Shown here one piece after another: positions 15,280 to 61,845 of a stretch of 64,000 nucleotides of DNA. The notes under the pieces were generated by a model. It did not search any database and was not told the origin of the DNA. It saw nothing but the letters and a program-made list of their open reading frames with translations. The stretch lies in contig CP136062.1 of NCBI GenBank assembly GCA_032622095.1, positions 164,818,590 through 164,882,589 on the forward strand, written 5' to 3'. How positions within the stretch are numbered: the first letter of the stretch is position 1; every line of letters begins with the position of its first letter. The DNA comes from Siphonodentalium dalli (taxonomy: Eukaryota > Mollusca > Scaphopoda > Gadilida > Siphonodentaliidae). The position numbers were made by a program, and so were the translations under genes.

Positions 15280-15940
15280 CAGCATAGCCTATACTATTAA
15301 TATGACATTAGAACATAAAACACAAACACACATACACGTTTTCCCCCTTGCACACACACCCCACCCCTAAAATGATCCATGTGCCGGTCTGTCCGAAGGA
15401 TAATTGGGATATTTTCAAACAGAAACGGTCAAAATGTGAAGCATATCATTCACATATTTGACACCCCAGCTCGGGTTTGGCGACATCTCATCGCAGGATC
15501 GATCTGCGGCTTTGATACCCGAAGTTATGGTGGGTACACACACTTGGTGCAGGTAGTATTTTTGCGAACCGCTCTGCAGGCTAGACAATTTTATGGTTAA
15601 TTAAACATATATTTTTCCTTTGATGCAAGCATTATCCGCCATCTATGACTGATAATTATGTTTCAAACTAACTACCTAACGTCAAAAAGTGTCTACTATT
15701 TATGACAAAATCGGAAATGAGTCGGAATTTCTGTTAAATTTATCGGGGTGAGAGCAAGCTATGGTCGCTATCCCATTGAGGGAATATTCCGCTTTGCGAA
15801 ATTATGTTTTGAATAGCGGATATCACCATTTAACTGGGAGATATATAGCTTCATCTGATGGAAGATATGTTTATTTATTAAACCGCATGATCTGGTTTGG
15901 TGATACCTTCGGGTTTGACGATACCACGTACACGGGGGTG
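15280..15940 (+). repeat. 660-bp dispersed repeat, plus-strand copy
   Basis: It matches the reverse complement of 61083-61745 over essentially its whole length, with small indels. It contains a 73-codon frame (15379-15600) beginning MCRSVRRIIGIFSNRNGQNV that is well conserved in the other copy up to about residue 58, and a second conserved frame (15761-15946) beginning MVAIPLREYSALR. Similarity ends at 15938 in 'acacgggggtg'. No domain was recognised. Conservation may simply reflect recent duplication. Confidence 0.8.
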
Positions 15941-17046: not shown

Positions 17047-17050
17047 TAGA

Positions 17051-17508
17051 GGAATCACGGAACTGAATGGTTTCCCATGGGCGACAGTGTTAACGTTTCG
17101 GCCAAATTCACTGAATTGAAGCCTGCAGGCCATATCAGTGATGTTTACCCGGCTAGATTGACACCAGTTGATCACGAAAATGGTAGAAAAATCATAGGTC
17201 ATGTGTTTACTTTTTAAAATAAATCCCCAAGTCTACGACAGGGCTATCTCACAGCCAAATTTGATCTGGAAAAATCCAGAACTACAGCAGCTAGTTAAAT
17301 AAATTTCCCGCTCACAAAAATCCATTCCCCCATTCATTCACCAGTTTAAATTATTTAGATATGATGTACAAGTCAAATAAACGCGATGTCATCCTTTAAT
17401 AACGTGTCGCATGTATCAGGTGAAGGTCATTCTTCAGTTACCTTCACCTTTAGAATTCCACGGTGTACTCGTTCCCCGACTCTAGAACACATTTAACTCC
17501 CTGATTCC
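17051..17508 (+). repeat. composite A, left long direct repeat
   Basis: A 458-bp repeat starting ggaatcacgg with TTTCCCAT 21 bases in and CAGTGTTAAC 35 bases in. It is the same length as the right copy and differs from it at few positions. Confidence 0.88.
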
Positions 17509-18368
17509 TATATATATGTATATGTGTAAAAAAACAGCGTTTGTTATAGTATTTTATCCAAATATAGACCTTACTGAAACCAAAAATGGATTATATCGGA
17601 CAGTAGCGGTTTATTTTTTCAATATGAGGCATCCTGAAAATTTGTGTCAATCATCAAAATAAAGCCAAAACATTTAGATTTTTTTTTCAATTTTACTAGC
17701 TGATGCATCTCGTATAACTGAAGTATGCCCTTATATACCATAATATTACTAAATTGAAGAGGAAATGTTAATATAAATTTTGAGATGGATATCTTGTCCA
17801 ATTTTAACCCTTTTCGTGCAGAATTTGGCAATTTATAATGAAGATTATAATAAAGATTTACCAAAATTAACAGAAAATTTAAATTAAAAATACTTAATAG
17901 CAATATAAAGCAACCATGAAATTTGACCAGATGACAGGGCATACTGTCTGTTTAACAAACCTGCCATGACAGTCTTGCACGACAGTAACTCTAGTGGTGA
18001 TGCCATCAACCCCCCACCCCCCCCCCCGACTTGGGGTGGGGCTACGATCCCCGATAAGGCTACTGGGTGCCAGAAGCTTAATTAGGTCAACTGCCACCTT
18101 TTCCCAATGGCGGGGGGTGCTAAGTTGCTAACACTCCTCCAAATTGTGGGGAGGGGGACTTTAGACCCTCTGACCCCCTAATGGTACATGATGTCCATGC
18201 AAAACTCACAGATTTATCACTTTCTTTACTATCTACAGGCGAATCCATGCGTTTCTTCTTTAAATCTGTCCAAAATGTGGTCATTATCATTTGAAAATAA
18301 GAAAATATGAAATTAACAACTTATCATGGCGAAACGTGAAATTTCGTAAAATTCAAATTTTTCTGATA

Positions 18369-18826
18369 GAAATCACGGAACTAAATGGTTTCCCATAGGC
18401 GACAGTGTTAACGTTTCGGCCAAATTCACTGAATTGAAGCCTGCAGGCCATATCAGTGATGTTTACCCGACTAGATTGACACCAGTTGATCACGAAAATT
18501 GTAGAAAAATCATAGGTCATGTGTTTACTTTTTAAAATAAATCCCCAAGTCTACGACAGGGCTATCTCACAGCCAAATTTGATCTGGAAAAATCCAGAAC
18601 TACAGCAGCTAGTTAAATAAATTTCCCGCTCACAAAAATCCATTCCCCCATTCATTGACCAGTTTAAATTATTTAGATATGATGTACAAATCAAATAAAC
18701 GCGATGTCATTCTTTAATAACGTGTCGCATGTATCAGGTGAAGGTCATTATTCAGTTACATTCACCTTTAGCATTCCACGGTGTACTCGTTCCCCGACTC
18801 TAGAACACATTTAGCTCCCTGATTCC
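18369..18826 (+). repeat. composite A, right long direct repeat
   Basis: Second 458-bp copy; its first bases read gaaatcacgg. It is followed by the TAGA duplication and the resumed tandem array. Confidence 0.88.
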
Positions 18827-18830
18827 TAGA

Positions 18831-35017: not shown

Positions 35018-36217
35018 CTGATCCAGTCACTCAACTATTTATTTATTTATTTTTGTCTACAATCAATATATTCGGCTCACGAGTTTACATGATTCGCAGG
35101 TGAATAAGGTCAAGTAATTACAAATTCTGTGTTCTCAGCTCTCATCACTTCCCGGAATATGTTTTCCAGATTACGCAGGATTATGAGAAAATAAATATAA
35201 ATTACCTCATTTCAAAATTGAGATCGTATCGCCTCAGACCAACTTTTATTTTAATGACCTAAATAAAACTACCAGTGATAGAAAAAATATCTGCCCTACC
35301 AAATAATTTCTATGCAAAGTGTATTAAATCTTAAACCTATTTCATAAGTATACATTACGTGATCATCATTTACTTCTTGTATCTGGTTTGATATGATCTT
35401 CTGTGTATAAATTGATAGCATTTATTACCATGTTTCTTGTTATCATTCAAGGCATAAATTTCTAGGGAATGACTCAAATAGTTTGCTCATTTGCTTTTCT
35501 CATAAACTGTTTATCGTCTTTGGTTTATACAAAAACATATCTTGGTGACTATTGTCTTGTTCTTAAAATAATGTACGGTAGTTTGTACTGTTATAACCTT
35601 GAAGTTTTTGTCTTGATATAATTTGTATTTATACATATTTCTTTGAAATAAAACAATTAAAGATACATTCGTTCTGAATTTTAACTCTTTTCAATTTGGG
35701 CATAAAGTCACCCCACTTCCCCCCATACCATCAGACCAAACTTTGCTTCGAAATGACACTTGCACCCTCATCTTTAGTTTGAACTTTCCTACTGGCACCT
35801 CAACCTTTCCATGAAATTTACGATCTGACACTCCATATGAGCTGATGTTGATCTAATGGTCTAAAATCAACAAGGCGTAAAATTTCCAATTTATGTAGGA
35901 CATGATTTTGAAACTGTTGAAAATGTTAAACACATATTTCTTACTTCGGTCATTGTTTAGGGCTTTAGCGGCATAGAACTGTTAGAATCGAGTTAGCGAC
36001 TCGTTTTTCGGCTCAACTTTACTTCCTTTAGCACGGGTGTAATCCAGATCTGATCTCTTGTCGGATCATTTTGAAATGTGTCATGGCTGTTGACATTACC
36101 ATGGGAACGACCATTTTATGGCCAATCGCCAAAAAAACAATGCCATCACGAATTTTACTCTGTGTATGACTAAACTCTTTTGCACAATCCATCAGCACAG
36201 GCTGCAGGCATTGGAAG
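35018..36217. other. unassigned sequence
   Basis: No gene or repeat was recognised. Several AATAAA words (for example near 35646) occur, but no transcript can be assigned. Confidence 0.45.
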
Positions 36218-37185
36218 TTTAGCAGCATAGCACCGCTAAAATCCAGTTTGAAACTCTTATTTCTTAATTATATCATTATTTAGTGAGTAGTATAGCACCC
36301 CTAGAATTGACTTTGAAACTCTCTATTTTAATATTTTCATTCTTTAGCAGCATAGCACCGCTAGAATTCCGTTTGGAACTCTCTTTTTTAATATTTTCAT
36401 TCCTTAGCAGCGTAGCACCGCTAGAATTCAGTTTGGAACTCTCTTTTTTAATATTTTCATTTCTCAGCAGTTTAGCAGCATAGCACTGCTAGAATTCAGT
36501 TTGAAACTGTCTTTGTTAACATTTTCATTCCTTAGCAGCATAGCACAACTAGAATTCAGTTTGAAACTCTGTCTTTTAAAATTTTCATTCCTTAGCAGCA
36601 TAGCACCGCTAGAATTCAGTTTGAAACTCTTTTTTAATATTTTCATTTCTCAGCAGTTTAGCAGCATAGCACTGCTAGACTTCAGTTTGGTACTCTTTTT
36701 TAATATATTTTTTTTCTTAGCAGTTTAGCAGCAGAGCACTGCTAGAATTCAGTTTGAAACTCTCTTTTTTAATATTTTCATTCCTTAGCAGTTTAGCAGC
36801 ATAGCACCGCTAGACTTCAGTTTGAAACTCTTTTTTTAATATTTTCATTTATTATCAGTTTTGCAGCGTAGCACTGCTAGAATTCAGTTTGAACCATTTA
36901 TTTTTAATGCGTCAGCACTTTAGCAGTCCTAGAGACCTTTTAAACTCCGTTTTCTTTCATTTTTTCATTCGTTAGCAGTTTAGCAACATAGCACCGCTAG
37001 AATTGGTTTTAAAATTCACATGTTATAACTTTTTCATTTATTAGCAGCTTAGCAGTGCTAGAGCCCAGTTTATAACTCCATTTTCTTCATTTGTTTTCAT
37101 TTATTAGCAGTTTAGTATCTTAGCAATGCTAGAATACGGTTTGATACTAGTACTCTTTTTTCTTGATTCAGTTGCACTTAGCAAT
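36218..37185 (+). repeat. ~65-75-bp satellite array, forward
   Basis: About fourteen units of 'tttagcagcatagcaccgct' + 'agaattcagtttgaaactct' + 'tttttaatattttcattcc'. Frames such as 36283-36483 with repeated 'FSLELSFLIFSFLSS' peptides are artefacts. The same array occurs inverted at 47340-47885 and 56990-57365. Confidence 0.9.
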
Positions 37186-39336: not shown

Positions 39337-39340
39337 TATA

Positions 39341-39792
39341 GGTTACAGTGAAGTAATTATTTCCCATAGGCCTCAGTGTTAACATATAATGGCCTGCAGC
39401 CCTGACTATCCACGAATTGTGATAAATGAGTACATGGTCACCGGAATTGGCATCTGCACAAAGTTTCTGCATGAAACAAATCATATCGTCTAGCATGGAA
39501 TGTACCTTTAAATTTGGGATTTATAATCGAGAGTCAGAATTGCATAAAAAAAATATTGACATTTTTTCACCTCACACCAACAAAATTAAATCTAGGAACC
39601 ACGTGCTTTACAATGTGCCAATGTTTTGTTTGGAGTCTGAAATTTCAAGAGGAGTGATTGCATGTATTTTATATGTTTAAATATCGAAACAACTATTAAC
39701 CAACCAGAGCCCAGAATTTTTTTAATTCTCTCCTGCATCTTGGTCCAAAATCCGTTGGAGGGCGCTACCAATCGAATTACTTCACTGTAACC
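39341..39792 (+). repeat. composite B, left long direct repeat
   Basis: 452 bp with perfect 18-bp TIRs. It differs from the right copy at a handful of positions and small A/T-run indels. Confidence 0.9.
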
Positions 39793-40683
39793 TAAAGTGA
39801 CAACAACGTTAATGACATGCCATCTGAAAATGACACAAATCGGCCACTGGACTCTTCACATTTGAAAATAAAATACAAAATCTCTATCCATGACTTTGTT
39901 TTCGTCTTATTAACCCTTTCCTGATCCCACCCCTGTTTACAATTGCAACACAAAATATCTTAAAATGAACACGAAAAATCACCATGTGAGGTCCATGTCG
40001 ATAAAGTAAACGATGGTAGCATATATACCCATCATTGGTGTGAAAGCTGGCCGATTTCTCTCTGTGAAAATATGGACGATGGTTCGCCTGATAAACATGG
40101 ACACGCTGGAGCTTGAATTGTGCGCACTTGACAAATTCTGAGTCCTGGTAAACGAAATTTTGGCAAAAACTGAAGTTATGAGTGCAACAGAATGATTATG
40201 TGCCTACATGTATGTGCATGGAAACAGCCACATCACTCAAACACACCACCGTGTTACACTTTTTGTCGACAAGCCACCTCAAGCAGACTAATTGGCTGCC
40301 ATTTAACCCTGCACTGGTCATGTTTTACATCAAATTTTAGAGACCTGCCACAGATAGCGATGTAGTTTTCTCTCATGGCTAGTCGAAAAGCCTTTATTTC
40401 AGTTGTGTACTGACCCTCGATGTTCAGTGAGTGATTTGTTACCATGACATTCATTACAGGTACACATATGGGTTCATAACGGACAAAAAAGGGAGATTTT
40501 CGAGGTGAAAATTTGAAGCAAAAATTGTCCCAGATGGGTTAATATTGGCTTCTCATTGATTACCACCGACTCAAATAATATAATATGCCACGTGCTACAA
40601 GTTCCCTAATTGTTTGTTGGTCAATGTTTATAGGAAACACACCACTGGGCCCAAATGAGAAAAAGGATCATTTTTGTGCTTTA

Positions 40684-41133
40684 GGTTACAGTGAAGTAAT
40701 TATTTCCCACAGGCCTCAGTGTTAACATATAATGACCTGCAGCCCTGACTATTCACGAATTGTGATAAATGAGTACATGGTCACCGGAATTGGCATCTGC
40801 GCAAAGTTTCTGCATGAAACAAATCATATCGTCTAGCATGGAATGTACCTTTAAATTTGGGATTTATAATCGAGAGTCAGAATTGCATGAAAAAAATATT
40901 GACATTTTCACCTCACACCAACAAAATTAAATCTAGGAACCACGTGCTTTACAATGTGCCAATGTTTTGTTTGGAGTCTGAAATTTCAAGAGGAGTGATT
41001 GCATGTATTTTATATGTTTAAATATCGAAACTACTATTAACCAACCAGAGCCCAGAATGTTTTTAATTCTCTCCTGCATCTTGGTCCAAAATCCGTTGGA
41101 GGGCGCTACCAATCGAATTACTTCACTGTAACC
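40684..41133 (+). repeat. composite B, right long direct repeat
   Basis: 450 bp, same orientation as the left copy, same 18-bp TIRs. It is followed by TATA. Confidence 0.9.
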
Positions 41134-41137
41134 TATA

Positions 41138-47210: not shown

Positions 47211-47339
47211 TTATTGCCTGAAAAGCGGTTTCGTATATTTGTTTCCGAACTGTACATTTATTCACATTTCCCCCGATTAAAAATGGATGACCAAACGCGA
47301 AGTCTGTAGAAAAGGGAGTTTTAGACTCGATGCTAGCAG

Positions 47340-47885
47340 TACATTAACTGCTAACGAATGAAAAAATGAAGAAAATAGAGTTTTATACCGGTTTCTAGAA
47401 CCGCTATGCTGCTAAACTGCTAATGCATGAAAATATGACAAATTAATTTCAAACTGAGTTATAACGGTGCTATGCTGCTAAACTGCTAACGAATGAAAAC
47501 ATAGTTTCAAACTGAATTCTAGCGGTGTTATGCTGTTAAACTGCTAACGAATGAAAATATTAAAAAAACAAGAGTTTCAAACTGAATTCTAGCGGTGCTA
47601 TGTTGCTAAACTGCTAAGGAATGAAAATGTTAAAAAAGAGAGTTTCAAATTGAATTCTACCGGTGCTATGCTCCTATACTGCTAAGGAATGAAAATATTA
47701 AAAAAAGAGTTTCAAACTGAATTCTGGCGGTGCTATGCTGCTAAACTACTAACGAATGAAAATATTTAAAAAACATGAGTTTCAAACTGAATTCTAGCGT
47801 TGCTATGCTGCTAAGGAATGTAAATATTAAAAAAGAGTTTCAAACTGAATTCTAGCGGTGCTATGCTGCTAAACTGCTAAGTAGA
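47340..47885 (-). repeat. ~65-70-bp satellite array, inverted
   Basis: About eight units of 'agtttcaaactgaattctag' + 'cggtgctatgctgctaaact' + 'gctaaggaatgaaaatatt', the reverse complement of the array at 36218-37185. Confidence 0.9.
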
Positions 47886-56250: not shown

Positions 56251-56989
56251 ATGTGTATTTGTGGTGACAACTTGATAAGCTGACGTTTCTTTTCTCAGCA
56301 TCCGTCTTGGATTTTACTCTTTGCATCATTCAAGTCTTCGGAATACGGTACAGCCCTCATGCATCTGTCCGACTGCATATTGGATGTCATGATTTGAATC
56401 TATCGGCAAACCATATAGCCCACGTTTATGAGCATGTAATTGTCAAATTGTAGATGCACGATCACGCTTCATATCTAGGAGTAATTTGACCATGCAAACA
56501 TAGTGTGCTTGGTCGTGATTACATCAGATATCTCGTTCTGATAGATGCATAAATATGGATTTATAATATTAACTTTATAACATTTCCCCAATGTATATAT
56601 GTGACTATTTTTTTGTAAAATAATTCATGGGCGATCTGATGCATGCATCTTCTTTTCTTGTTATATTATGGTATGTGATTCGTTGCAGTCTGAACGCCGA
56701 TATTTACTTCCCAAATGTATTGCCCCTTTGATAAATACTTTGAATTTCAAAAACATAATGCAAAGTGATGAAATAATTATACTACGAAAACTGAGTCAAT
56801 TTATACGGAAAATATAACTAATATTGGATTCACCGCCTATCGAAACCACAACTATTCCACAATGAGACATTTACACCAAAACCACAAATCAATTTGTTAT
56901 ATACATGTAATATATTATGTTCCTCGTGTATCTCATGTGATTTAAACGAGTGAAATAAACAAATTGAAATTGAATGAACATATTTAAAA
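56251..56989. other. unassigned, with the dispersed 'gatgcatgcatc' motif inverted
   Basis: 'cgatctgatgcatgcatctt' near 56633 is the inverse of the motif at 52941/53185. No gene was seen. Confidence 0.45.
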
Positions 56990-57365
56990 AAAGAGTTTCA
57001 AACTGAAGTCTAGCGGTGCTATGCTGCTAAACTGCTAAGGAATGAAACTATTAAAAAAGAGAGTTTCAAACTGAATTATAGAGGTGCTATGTTGCTAAAC
57101 TGCTAAGGAATGAAAATATTAAAACAGAGAGTTTCAAACTGAATTCTAGCGTTGCTATGCTGCTAAACTGCTAAGGAATGAAAATATTAAAAAAAAAGTT
57201 TCAAACTGAATTCTAGCAGTGCTATGTTGCTAAACTTCTAAGGAATGAAAATATTAAAAATGAAGATTTTCAAACTGAATTATAAACTGCTAAGGAATGA
57301 AAATAAACACAAAGAGTTTCAAACTGAATTCTAGCGGTGCTATGCTGCTAAACTGCTAAGGATTC
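56990..57365 (-). repeat. ~65-70-bp satellite array, third locus
   Basis: About six units of the 'gctgctaaactgctaaggaatgaaaatatt' family in the same orientation as 47340-47885. One unit near 57262-57300 is shortened. Confidence 0.88.
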
Positions 57366-61082: not shown

Positions 61083-61745
61083 CAGGTACACCCCCGTGTA
61101 CGTGGTATCGCCAAACCCGAGGGTATCACCAAACCAGACCATGCGGTTTTGATAAATGAACATATCTTCGGTCAGATGAAGCTATATAACTCTCAGTTAA
61201 ATGGTGATATCCACTATTAAAAACATAACTTCGCAAAGCGGAATATCCCCTCAATGAGATAGCGACCACAGCTTGCTCTCACCCGATAACTTTAATAAAG
61301 AAATTCCGACTCATTTCCGCTTTTATCATAAATAGTAGACACCTTCCGACGTTAGGTGGTTCGTTTGAACGATAATTATCAGTCGTAGATGGCGGGTAAT
61401 GCGTGTATCAATAGACAAATATATGTTTAATTAACCATAAAATTGTTCAACCTGCAGAGCGGTTGGCAAAAATACTAGCTAAGTCCAAGTGTGGGTACCC
61501 ATCATAACTTCGGGTATCAAAGCCGCAGATCGATCCTGCGATGAGATGTCGCCAAACCTGAGCTGAGATGTCAAAGATGCGAATGATATGCTTCACATTT
61601 TGACCGTTTCTGCTTGAAAATATCCCAATTATCATTCGGACAGACCGGCACATGGATCATCTTTAGGGTGTGGGTGCATGCGGAAGAGTGAAAACATGTA
61701 TGTTTGTTTGTGTTTTATATATGTTCTAATGTCATTCATAGTATA
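61083..61745 (-). repeat. 660-bp dispersed repeat, minus-strand copy
   Basis: Reverse complement of 15280-15940. Minus-strand frame 61653-61447 reads MCRSVRMIIGIFSSRNGQNV and stays parallel to the other copy through 'WRHLIAGSICGFDTRSY', then diverges by frame. The second frame (MVAISLRGYSALR) is interrupted earlier than in the 15.7-kb copy. Confidence 0.8.
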
Positions 61746-61845
61746 GTATGGGCAGCCATTCGGTCGGAAATTACATGAAATAAAACTAATAGACCTTATT
61801 GTCATTCTTATATTTAAAAGATATAAATTATCACCAATGAAAAAT

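Follow-up and report, generated by a model that had tools for sequence, protein, structure and literature searches.

Among described mobile elements, the closest to those considered here are the KolobokP DNA transposons, for which Kojima and Bao (2022; PMC9587614) reported a core (INT) bracketed by two long terminal direct repeats (LTDRs), that is, an LTDR-INT-LTDR architecture. In the parts of that report available to us, the LTDRs are about 450 or about 660 bp long and carry terminal inverted repeats (TIRs) of up to 18 bp, target site duplications (TSDs) measure 3 to 5 bp without strong target preference, and solo LTDRs, multimers, and INT-INT junctions with micro-deletions are all described. 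The same parts record a DDE transposase and, downstream of it on the complementary strand, an I-PpoI-like His-Me nuclease, as well as a spread over 7 animal phyla and non-autonomous oyster families of 1.7-3.3 kb. Other Kolobok lineages, which are TTAA specific, resemble element B of this study in DDE type, 5'-RR ends, and a 4-bp T..A duplication, but as far as the available parts of PMC9587614 describe them, they lack the LTDR architecture and have other accessory proteins. In bacterial IS-flanked composite transposons, two TIR-bearing repeats likewise bracket a core and move with it as a unit; these differ in that the core of KolobokP, and neither of its flanking repeats, carries the transposase, and in that KolobokP is eukaryotic.

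Here, we describe two elements, A and B, in a 64-kb window (C2:164818590-164882589) of a 2.23-Gb, nine-contig genome; C numbers denote contigs and L numbers the genome loci that we read. Both are almost certainly non-autonomous KolobokP transposons with an LTDR-INT-LTDR mobile unit, a reading that takes in the mechanism proposed below and in which the assignment to KolobokP draws on architecture, TIRs, TSDs, and the domains of relatives. The first-pass annotation had taken A and B for diverged members of one real, possibly undescribed class. They do belong to one class, with the same architecture, multiple copies, and coding relatives built to the same plan; that plan, however, was already published as KolobokP, as the available parts of PMC9587614 make clear. 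The families of A and B are new, and the class is not.

Element B occupies positions 39341-41133 of the window (1793 bp). Its left repeat (LTDR1, 39341-39792, plus strand) is 452 bp long and its right repeat (LTDR2, 40684-41133, plus strand) 450 bp, lengths that match the shorter KolobokP class, and self-comparison gives 97.6% identity between them. Both have perfect 18-bp inverted ends, GGTTACAGTGAAGTAATT, reading GG...CC, in agreement with the 11- to 18-bp, 5'-RR/YY-3' TIRs on each KolobokP LTDR; the inner inverted pair of the two repeats reaches 23 bp. The INT between them (39793-40683, plus strand) is 891 bp long with tips TAAAG...CTTTA, and its genome copies are 96-99% identical. A tblastn search with proteins of three relatives found no credible coding relic in it. 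TATA lies on both outer flanks (39337-39340 and 41134-41137). Coordinates and sequence bear out the plan first noted for B and reproduce the lengths given then, 1793 bp for B against 1776 bp for A; at 1.8 kb, B is within the published size range of non-autonomous KolobokP families.

Element A (17051-18826, 1776 bp) is bounded by TAGA at 17047-17050 and 18827-18830. Its left LTDR (17051-17508, plus strand) is 458 bp long, again in the shorter class, with the TIR GGAATCA; the right LTDR lies at 18369-18826 (plus strand), and both are supported by genome copies. The 860-bp INT (17509-18368, plus strand) is an internally deleted relative of a 3.7-kb coding INT at locus L022, since blastn aligns the latter to both of its ends (INT positions 1-405 at 76% and 744-845 at 81%). 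It retains a relic of the N terminus of the His-Me nuclease at 18207-18320 on the minus strand (tblastn, 52.6% over 38 aa, E 7.6e-8), the only trace in the two window elements of a protein that is otherwise seen in the relatives.

A subterminal block is common to the repeats of A and B. In LTDR1 of B, it is ATTTCCCATAGGCCTCAGTGTTAACAT (39359-39385, plus strand); the common core, TTTCCCATNGGCNNCAGTGTTAAC, is identical at 21 of 24 bases in the two elements and starts at base 20 of the B repeat and base 21 of the A repeat. Searched as a pattern, TTTCCCATNGGCNNCAGTGTTAAC gave 4887 genome hits, compared with 0 for the reversed control, and the similarity of offset that had been noted between A and B is therefore beyond chance. 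A second block had been noted as well: GCCTGCAG is indeed downstream of TTTCCCATNGGCNNCAGTGTTAAC in both repeats, but at differing offsets, base 52 in B and base 71 in A. Between the B repeat and the A-like repeat of L022, blastn joins only B positions 6-43 (82%, E 2.6e-4). A TTTCCC block is present in the repeats of A, B, and families B2, C, and D and absent from the first 24 bases of the family F repeat; it is not universal among families. Neither "satellite" nor "subterminal" appears as a word in the PMC9587614 main text, and we found in its available parts no mention of a common subterminal block of the A/B type or of strong TNNA targets such as those described below.

Both families are multicopy. 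A genome search with the B repeat returned 40 scored matches, nearly all full length and including the window's two (1388 rough candidates), and the B core gave 36 matches from 25 scored candidates (399 rough candidates); 33 of these matches, the window's own included, are complete or almost complete. For the A repeat, there were 41 matches from 40 scored candidates (2548 rough candidates), window copies included. The LTDR-INT-LTDR unit of B recurs on further chromosomes, and B is seen as solo LTDR, as monomer, and in arrays. The KolobokP repertoire of solo LTDRs, (LTDR-INT)n-LTDR multimers, and INT-INT junctions is thus represented. One multimer, L019, reads LTDR-INT-INT-LTDR-INT-INT-LTDR. 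The INT-INT junction of B is CTTTAAAG, 2 bases less than the summed tips, whereas published KolobokP junctions lose 3-4 bp in the available parts of PMC9587614; that of family A (L034) has an overlap of four bases, like the small deletions of KolobokP. Where they adjoin an LTDR, the INT tips are, by eye, inverted copies of each other in B (CTTTA/TAAAG), D (CCTTTA/TAAAGG), C (GCTATA/TATAGC), and F (CTTTAA/TTAAAG); in family A, they are only TATA/TATA.

Three loci show further arrangements. L021 (C4:225858200-225868199) is a higher-order repeat of one LTDR and at least three INTs, with INT variants in repeated order. In the B copy at L004 (C1:244036890-244040340), other sequence of about 1 kb breaks up the INT, and INT positions 124-135 occur on either side of it; this is probably a nested insertion. 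At L020 (C1:3463900-3467300), family A LTDRs stand close together in opposite orientations around a damaged unit.

The flanks of both window elements recur upstream, 313 kb away for A (L036) and 320 kb away for B (L003), within C2:164520900-164540223. The TSDs are the same there, and both insertions are solo LTDRs. Over up to 1.5 kb per side, these flanks are 96-99% identical to those in the window where aligned, and some stretches are unaligned. On its right, B is flanked by a repeated sequence, nearly all of which is matched at three places besides the window and L003. This flank is 97% identical to L003 and likewise 97% identical to the two best dispersed copies. It is thus no closer to L003 than to those copies, and B may have inserted separately into the same repeat site. 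The L036 and L003 segments may accordingly represent a haplotig (misplaced alleles), a segmental duplication with paralogues, or, for B, a repeat-borne flank. At the A locus, the solo shares a derived base with the window's left LTDR at column 324 and with its right LTDR at columns 345, 384, and 394. As a mosaic of the two, it points to a crossover between columns 324 and 345. The L003 solo and the window LTDRs of B have no derived base in common.

These paired versions bear on an explanation in which circular LTDR-INT DNA recombines into existing solo LTDRs, so that the elements spread in a satellite-like manner and not by transposition of the whole unit. Arrays and INT-INT junctions speak for it, as do the solo versions between the same flanks and the mosaic A solo, and integration of circles is proposed as one route in the available parts of PMC9587614. 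The mosaic would, however, fit either loss of the INT from a monomer or its gain by a solo. Changes at the A locus are equally numerous in the inner and outer parts of the LTDRs (6 and 6; small numbers), which mildly favors loss and would suit an old monomer with the solo arising by deletion. We consider spread by circles unlikely.

The reading we prefer is transposition of the composite unit. At L074, L075, and L076, which are without B, the left and right flanks of the element overlap by exactly 4 bp in all three cases; the overlap is legible as TATA in the sequences of L075 and L076, and in L074 it follows from alignment coordinates. Among the 17 B insertions with both flanks seen, a count that leaves out 14 loci with a single outer flank and the array L021, an exact 4-bp TSD is present in 12, comprising 8 of 12 solo LTDRs, 3 of 4 complete monomers, and the one multimer, L019 (TGGA). 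All 12 fit TNNA (six TATA, two TAAA, and one each of TGAA, TTAA, TACA, and TGGA). Because window B and L003 share flanks, 11 of these duplications are independent. No exact duplication is present in the other 5 of the 17 (4 of 12 solos and 1 of 4 monomers): one end base is altered in L011, L039 has TTAA/TGAA and L012 TTTA/ATTA, and the ends are altered in L044 and L046. At the 14 single-flank loci, judged by eye, 11 fit TNNA and 3 do not. Together with the empty sites, these counts confirm the 4-bp, T(A)NA-like duplication that had been suggested from the window. They also set B, which is strongly TNNA, apart from KolobokP as published, for which the available parts of PMC9587614 report no strong target preference. 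TSDs of the A type agree with TNNA as well, being TAGA (window), TGTA (L014 and L016), TTCA (L022), and TACA (L031), and those of family C are ATTA (L026) and TATA (L027). Three of three family F solo copies have, by eye, 3-bp duplications: TTA (L086), TTG (L089), and TAA (L090). With 4 bp in B and 3 bp in F, the duplications are within the 3- to 5-bp range of KolobokP.

It is very improbable that two 450-bp MITEs inserted independently and bracketed host or satellite DNA by chance, with no mobility of the composite. The 450-bp repeat alone is indeed dispersed with TNNA duplications of its own, and some cores adjoin one another head to tail with no intervening repeat. Against this, the same composite, with identical inner junctions, is found at different places with different TSDs (TATA at L001, TAAA at L002, and TACA at L009), the three composites do not share outer flanks, and family A has the same plan around another core, as do the coding relatives.

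These relatives link the composite plan to a transposase. L022 (C1:23980200-23989300) is an LTDR-INT-LTDR-INT-LTDR element of family A's kind, flanked by TTCA. L023-L025 carry the 18-bp TIR of B at 18 of 18 positions. Their LTDRs are 69% identical to that of B over about 454 bp, with E values as low as 1e-46, and their INTs, which reach about 4 kb, have no blastn match to the B INT. We found no long-core element with the LTDR of B itself, the identical-TIR partner reaching only 69% LTDR identity. The coding INTs bear a Kolobok-type DDE transposase (PF20700) on one strand and a PF05551/His-Me nuclease on the other, near one LTDR, an arrangement like that of KolobokP. Both domains are found in L022 (PF20700, E 4.4e-47; PF05551, E 3.8e-11), of the A type, and in L025 (PF20700, E 4.4e-41; PF05551, E 1.1e-13), with the TIR of B. 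Copies encoding a transposase, one of the possibilities raised at first, are found among these relatives. PF20700 is detected in L022, L025, L026, L028, L029, and L079 and the His-Me nuclease in L022-L031 and L079; the transposase frames of L023-L025 are split, and LTDRs were not located in L029, L080, and L081. The L022 transposase has 69 scored genome matches (643 rough candidates). PF05551 has 149 matches in this genome and 0 in 14 control genomes.

Six aligned transposases have as invariant residues D171, D273, H303 of a C/DxxH motif (CxxH in L079 and DxxH in the other five), C377/H382/C385/C392, and E447. The zinc finger, C-x4-H-x2-C-x6-C, precedes the last E. As we read the description in the available parts of PMC9587614, D171, D273, and E447 would form the catalytic triad. 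The C/DxxH motif and zinc finger of the KolobokP transposase are thus found in the relatives and not in B itself. Among the 18 residues that are invariant in six aligned nucleases are S-H, N, H, and the Cys set. The profile of these nucleases finds I-PpoI (E 1.8e-8) over positions 88-133 only, an alignment that excludes the DNA-contact residues 61, 63, 65, and 74 named in the available parts of PMC9587614. One transposase and one nuclease searched against NCBIfam gave no match, and the best PDB match to the L022 transposase (E 0.21) was not credible as a relative.

Given these proteins, there is a vanishingly small probability that A and B are derivatives of an LTR retrotransposon (TRIM/LARD or retrozyme), although tandem arrays and a 4-bp TSD would suit such an origin, as would direct repeats that also occur solo. 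The ends are 18-bp TIRs starting with GG and not TG..CA. A DDE transposase and a nuclease are what the relatives encode, no reverse transcriptase was hit among 15 of their proteins (7 + 8) or seen in the loci read, and no Rfam family reaches gathering score within the window. The GG..CC ends and the DDE transposase likewise set A and B apart from LTR/TRIM elements, and the Rfam result speaks against a retrozyme or ribozyme. DIRS and Crypton elements, which use a tyrosine recombinase and leave no TSD, are out, as a TSD is present and the 15 proteins scanned contain no such domain; the same holds for the tyrosine recombinase first considered for autonomous copies. Sola, piggyBac, and Harbinger are among the superfamilies with 4-bp or T..A targets. 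These and others of that kind were dropped, the relatives encoding PF20700 and an I-PpoI-like nuclease.

We therefore propose a scheme for B that agrees with the known KolobokP forms. Most likely, a KolobokP DDE transposase from a same-TIR relative moves B in trans: it would cut the outer TIR ends and join them to a TNNA target with a 4-bp stagger, and repair of the gaps would produce the TSD. A single LTDR may also move alone, since each is itself bounded by TIRs. Solo LTDRs and (LTDR-INT)n-LTDR arrays would both result when the two LTDRs recombine, and an array that lost an internal LTDR would be left with an INT-INT junction. The His-Me nuclease of autonomous relatives probably provokes this recombination through cuts within the LTDR or at its edge. 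What A and B add to KolobokP is a large chromosome-scale genome in which its life cycle can be followed, with pre-insertion sites and with solo and composite versions between the same flanks.

One product of such recombination may be an array of family A on C7. A units fill most of C7:68923914-69378239 (about 454 kb), being present in 15 of 17 stretches that were sampled within this interval or extend into it (L018, L032-L035, L063-L073, and L078). The two without them lie at 69.250-69.2545 and 69.300-69.3014 Mb (L035 and L071), and the array is interrupted somewhere between 69.21 and 69.34 Mb. Seven stretches sampled below it (L057-L062 and L077) contained no A units. TGAA stands at both outer ends (L078 and L033), which is suggestive of one insertion that grew in place to about 454 kb, interruption included, between TGAA duplications; it is only suggestive because a 4-bp match among TNNA sites has a chance of about 1 in 16. 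In this size, the array is unlike KolobokP as published, and the available parts of PMC9587614 contain no mention that we found of a TGAA-ended array of about 454 kb or of solo versions near duplicated flanks. Regular arrays of nuclease matches were also seen at C2:178174277-178206035 (8 copies at a constant 4495-bp period) and at C8:164865782-164898396 (9 copies at about 4040 bp). A D-type LTDR is present in L083 and L082, which belong to these arrays, and the arrays probably consist of coding KolobokP units.

The position at which the KolobokP nuclease cuts is left open by the available parts of PMC9587614, which give I-PpoI 4-base 3' overhangs (TTAA) at a 15-bp site. An available part of PMC6294500 gives this site as CTCTCTTAAGGTAGC. 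In family F, whose 648-bp LTDR falls in the longer KolobokP class, both LTDR/INT junctions read TTAA followed by GGTAGC and match CTCTCTTAAGGTAGC at 12 of 15 positions. The top-strand cut of I-PpoI falls after TTAA. The family F LTDR starts at GGTAGC, and its first base is what we take to be the base after that cut. Among 384 control sites in the window in which T..A precedes GG, 0 score 12 of 15 or higher and 13 score at least 10. Of 15 junctions scored, the two of family F reach 12, and the other 13, from five families (A, B, B2, C, and D), are at background level with scores of 5-10; the match comes from family F only, from two junctions that share one TIR. "GGTAGC" is absent from the main text of PMC9587614, and we found no mention in its available parts of repeat/core junctions matching the I-PpoI site at 12 of 15, as in this one family. 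The 3-bp duplications of family F do not fit the 4-base overhang of I-PpoI and speak against equating overhang with duplication. On balance, it is a doubtful idea that the KolobokP His-Me nuclease cuts exactly at the LTDR edge, at LTDR/INT junctions or LTDR-less INT-INT palindromes, and so drives unequal crossover. The family F junction would offer a tentative answer to the question of the homing endonuclease cut site that PMC9587614, in its available parts, leaves open. If the idea were true, the crossover would restore the composite plan and let a single insertion expand into an array of hundreds of kilobases.

Two other kinds of repeat are present in the window. A tandem repeat family with a unit of about 60-70 bp is found at 36216-37168, 47305-47881, and 56961-57362, two of these being inverted relative to the first, and an inverted pair of sequences of about 660 bp, 88.8% identical, lies at 15289-15940 and 61089-61746.
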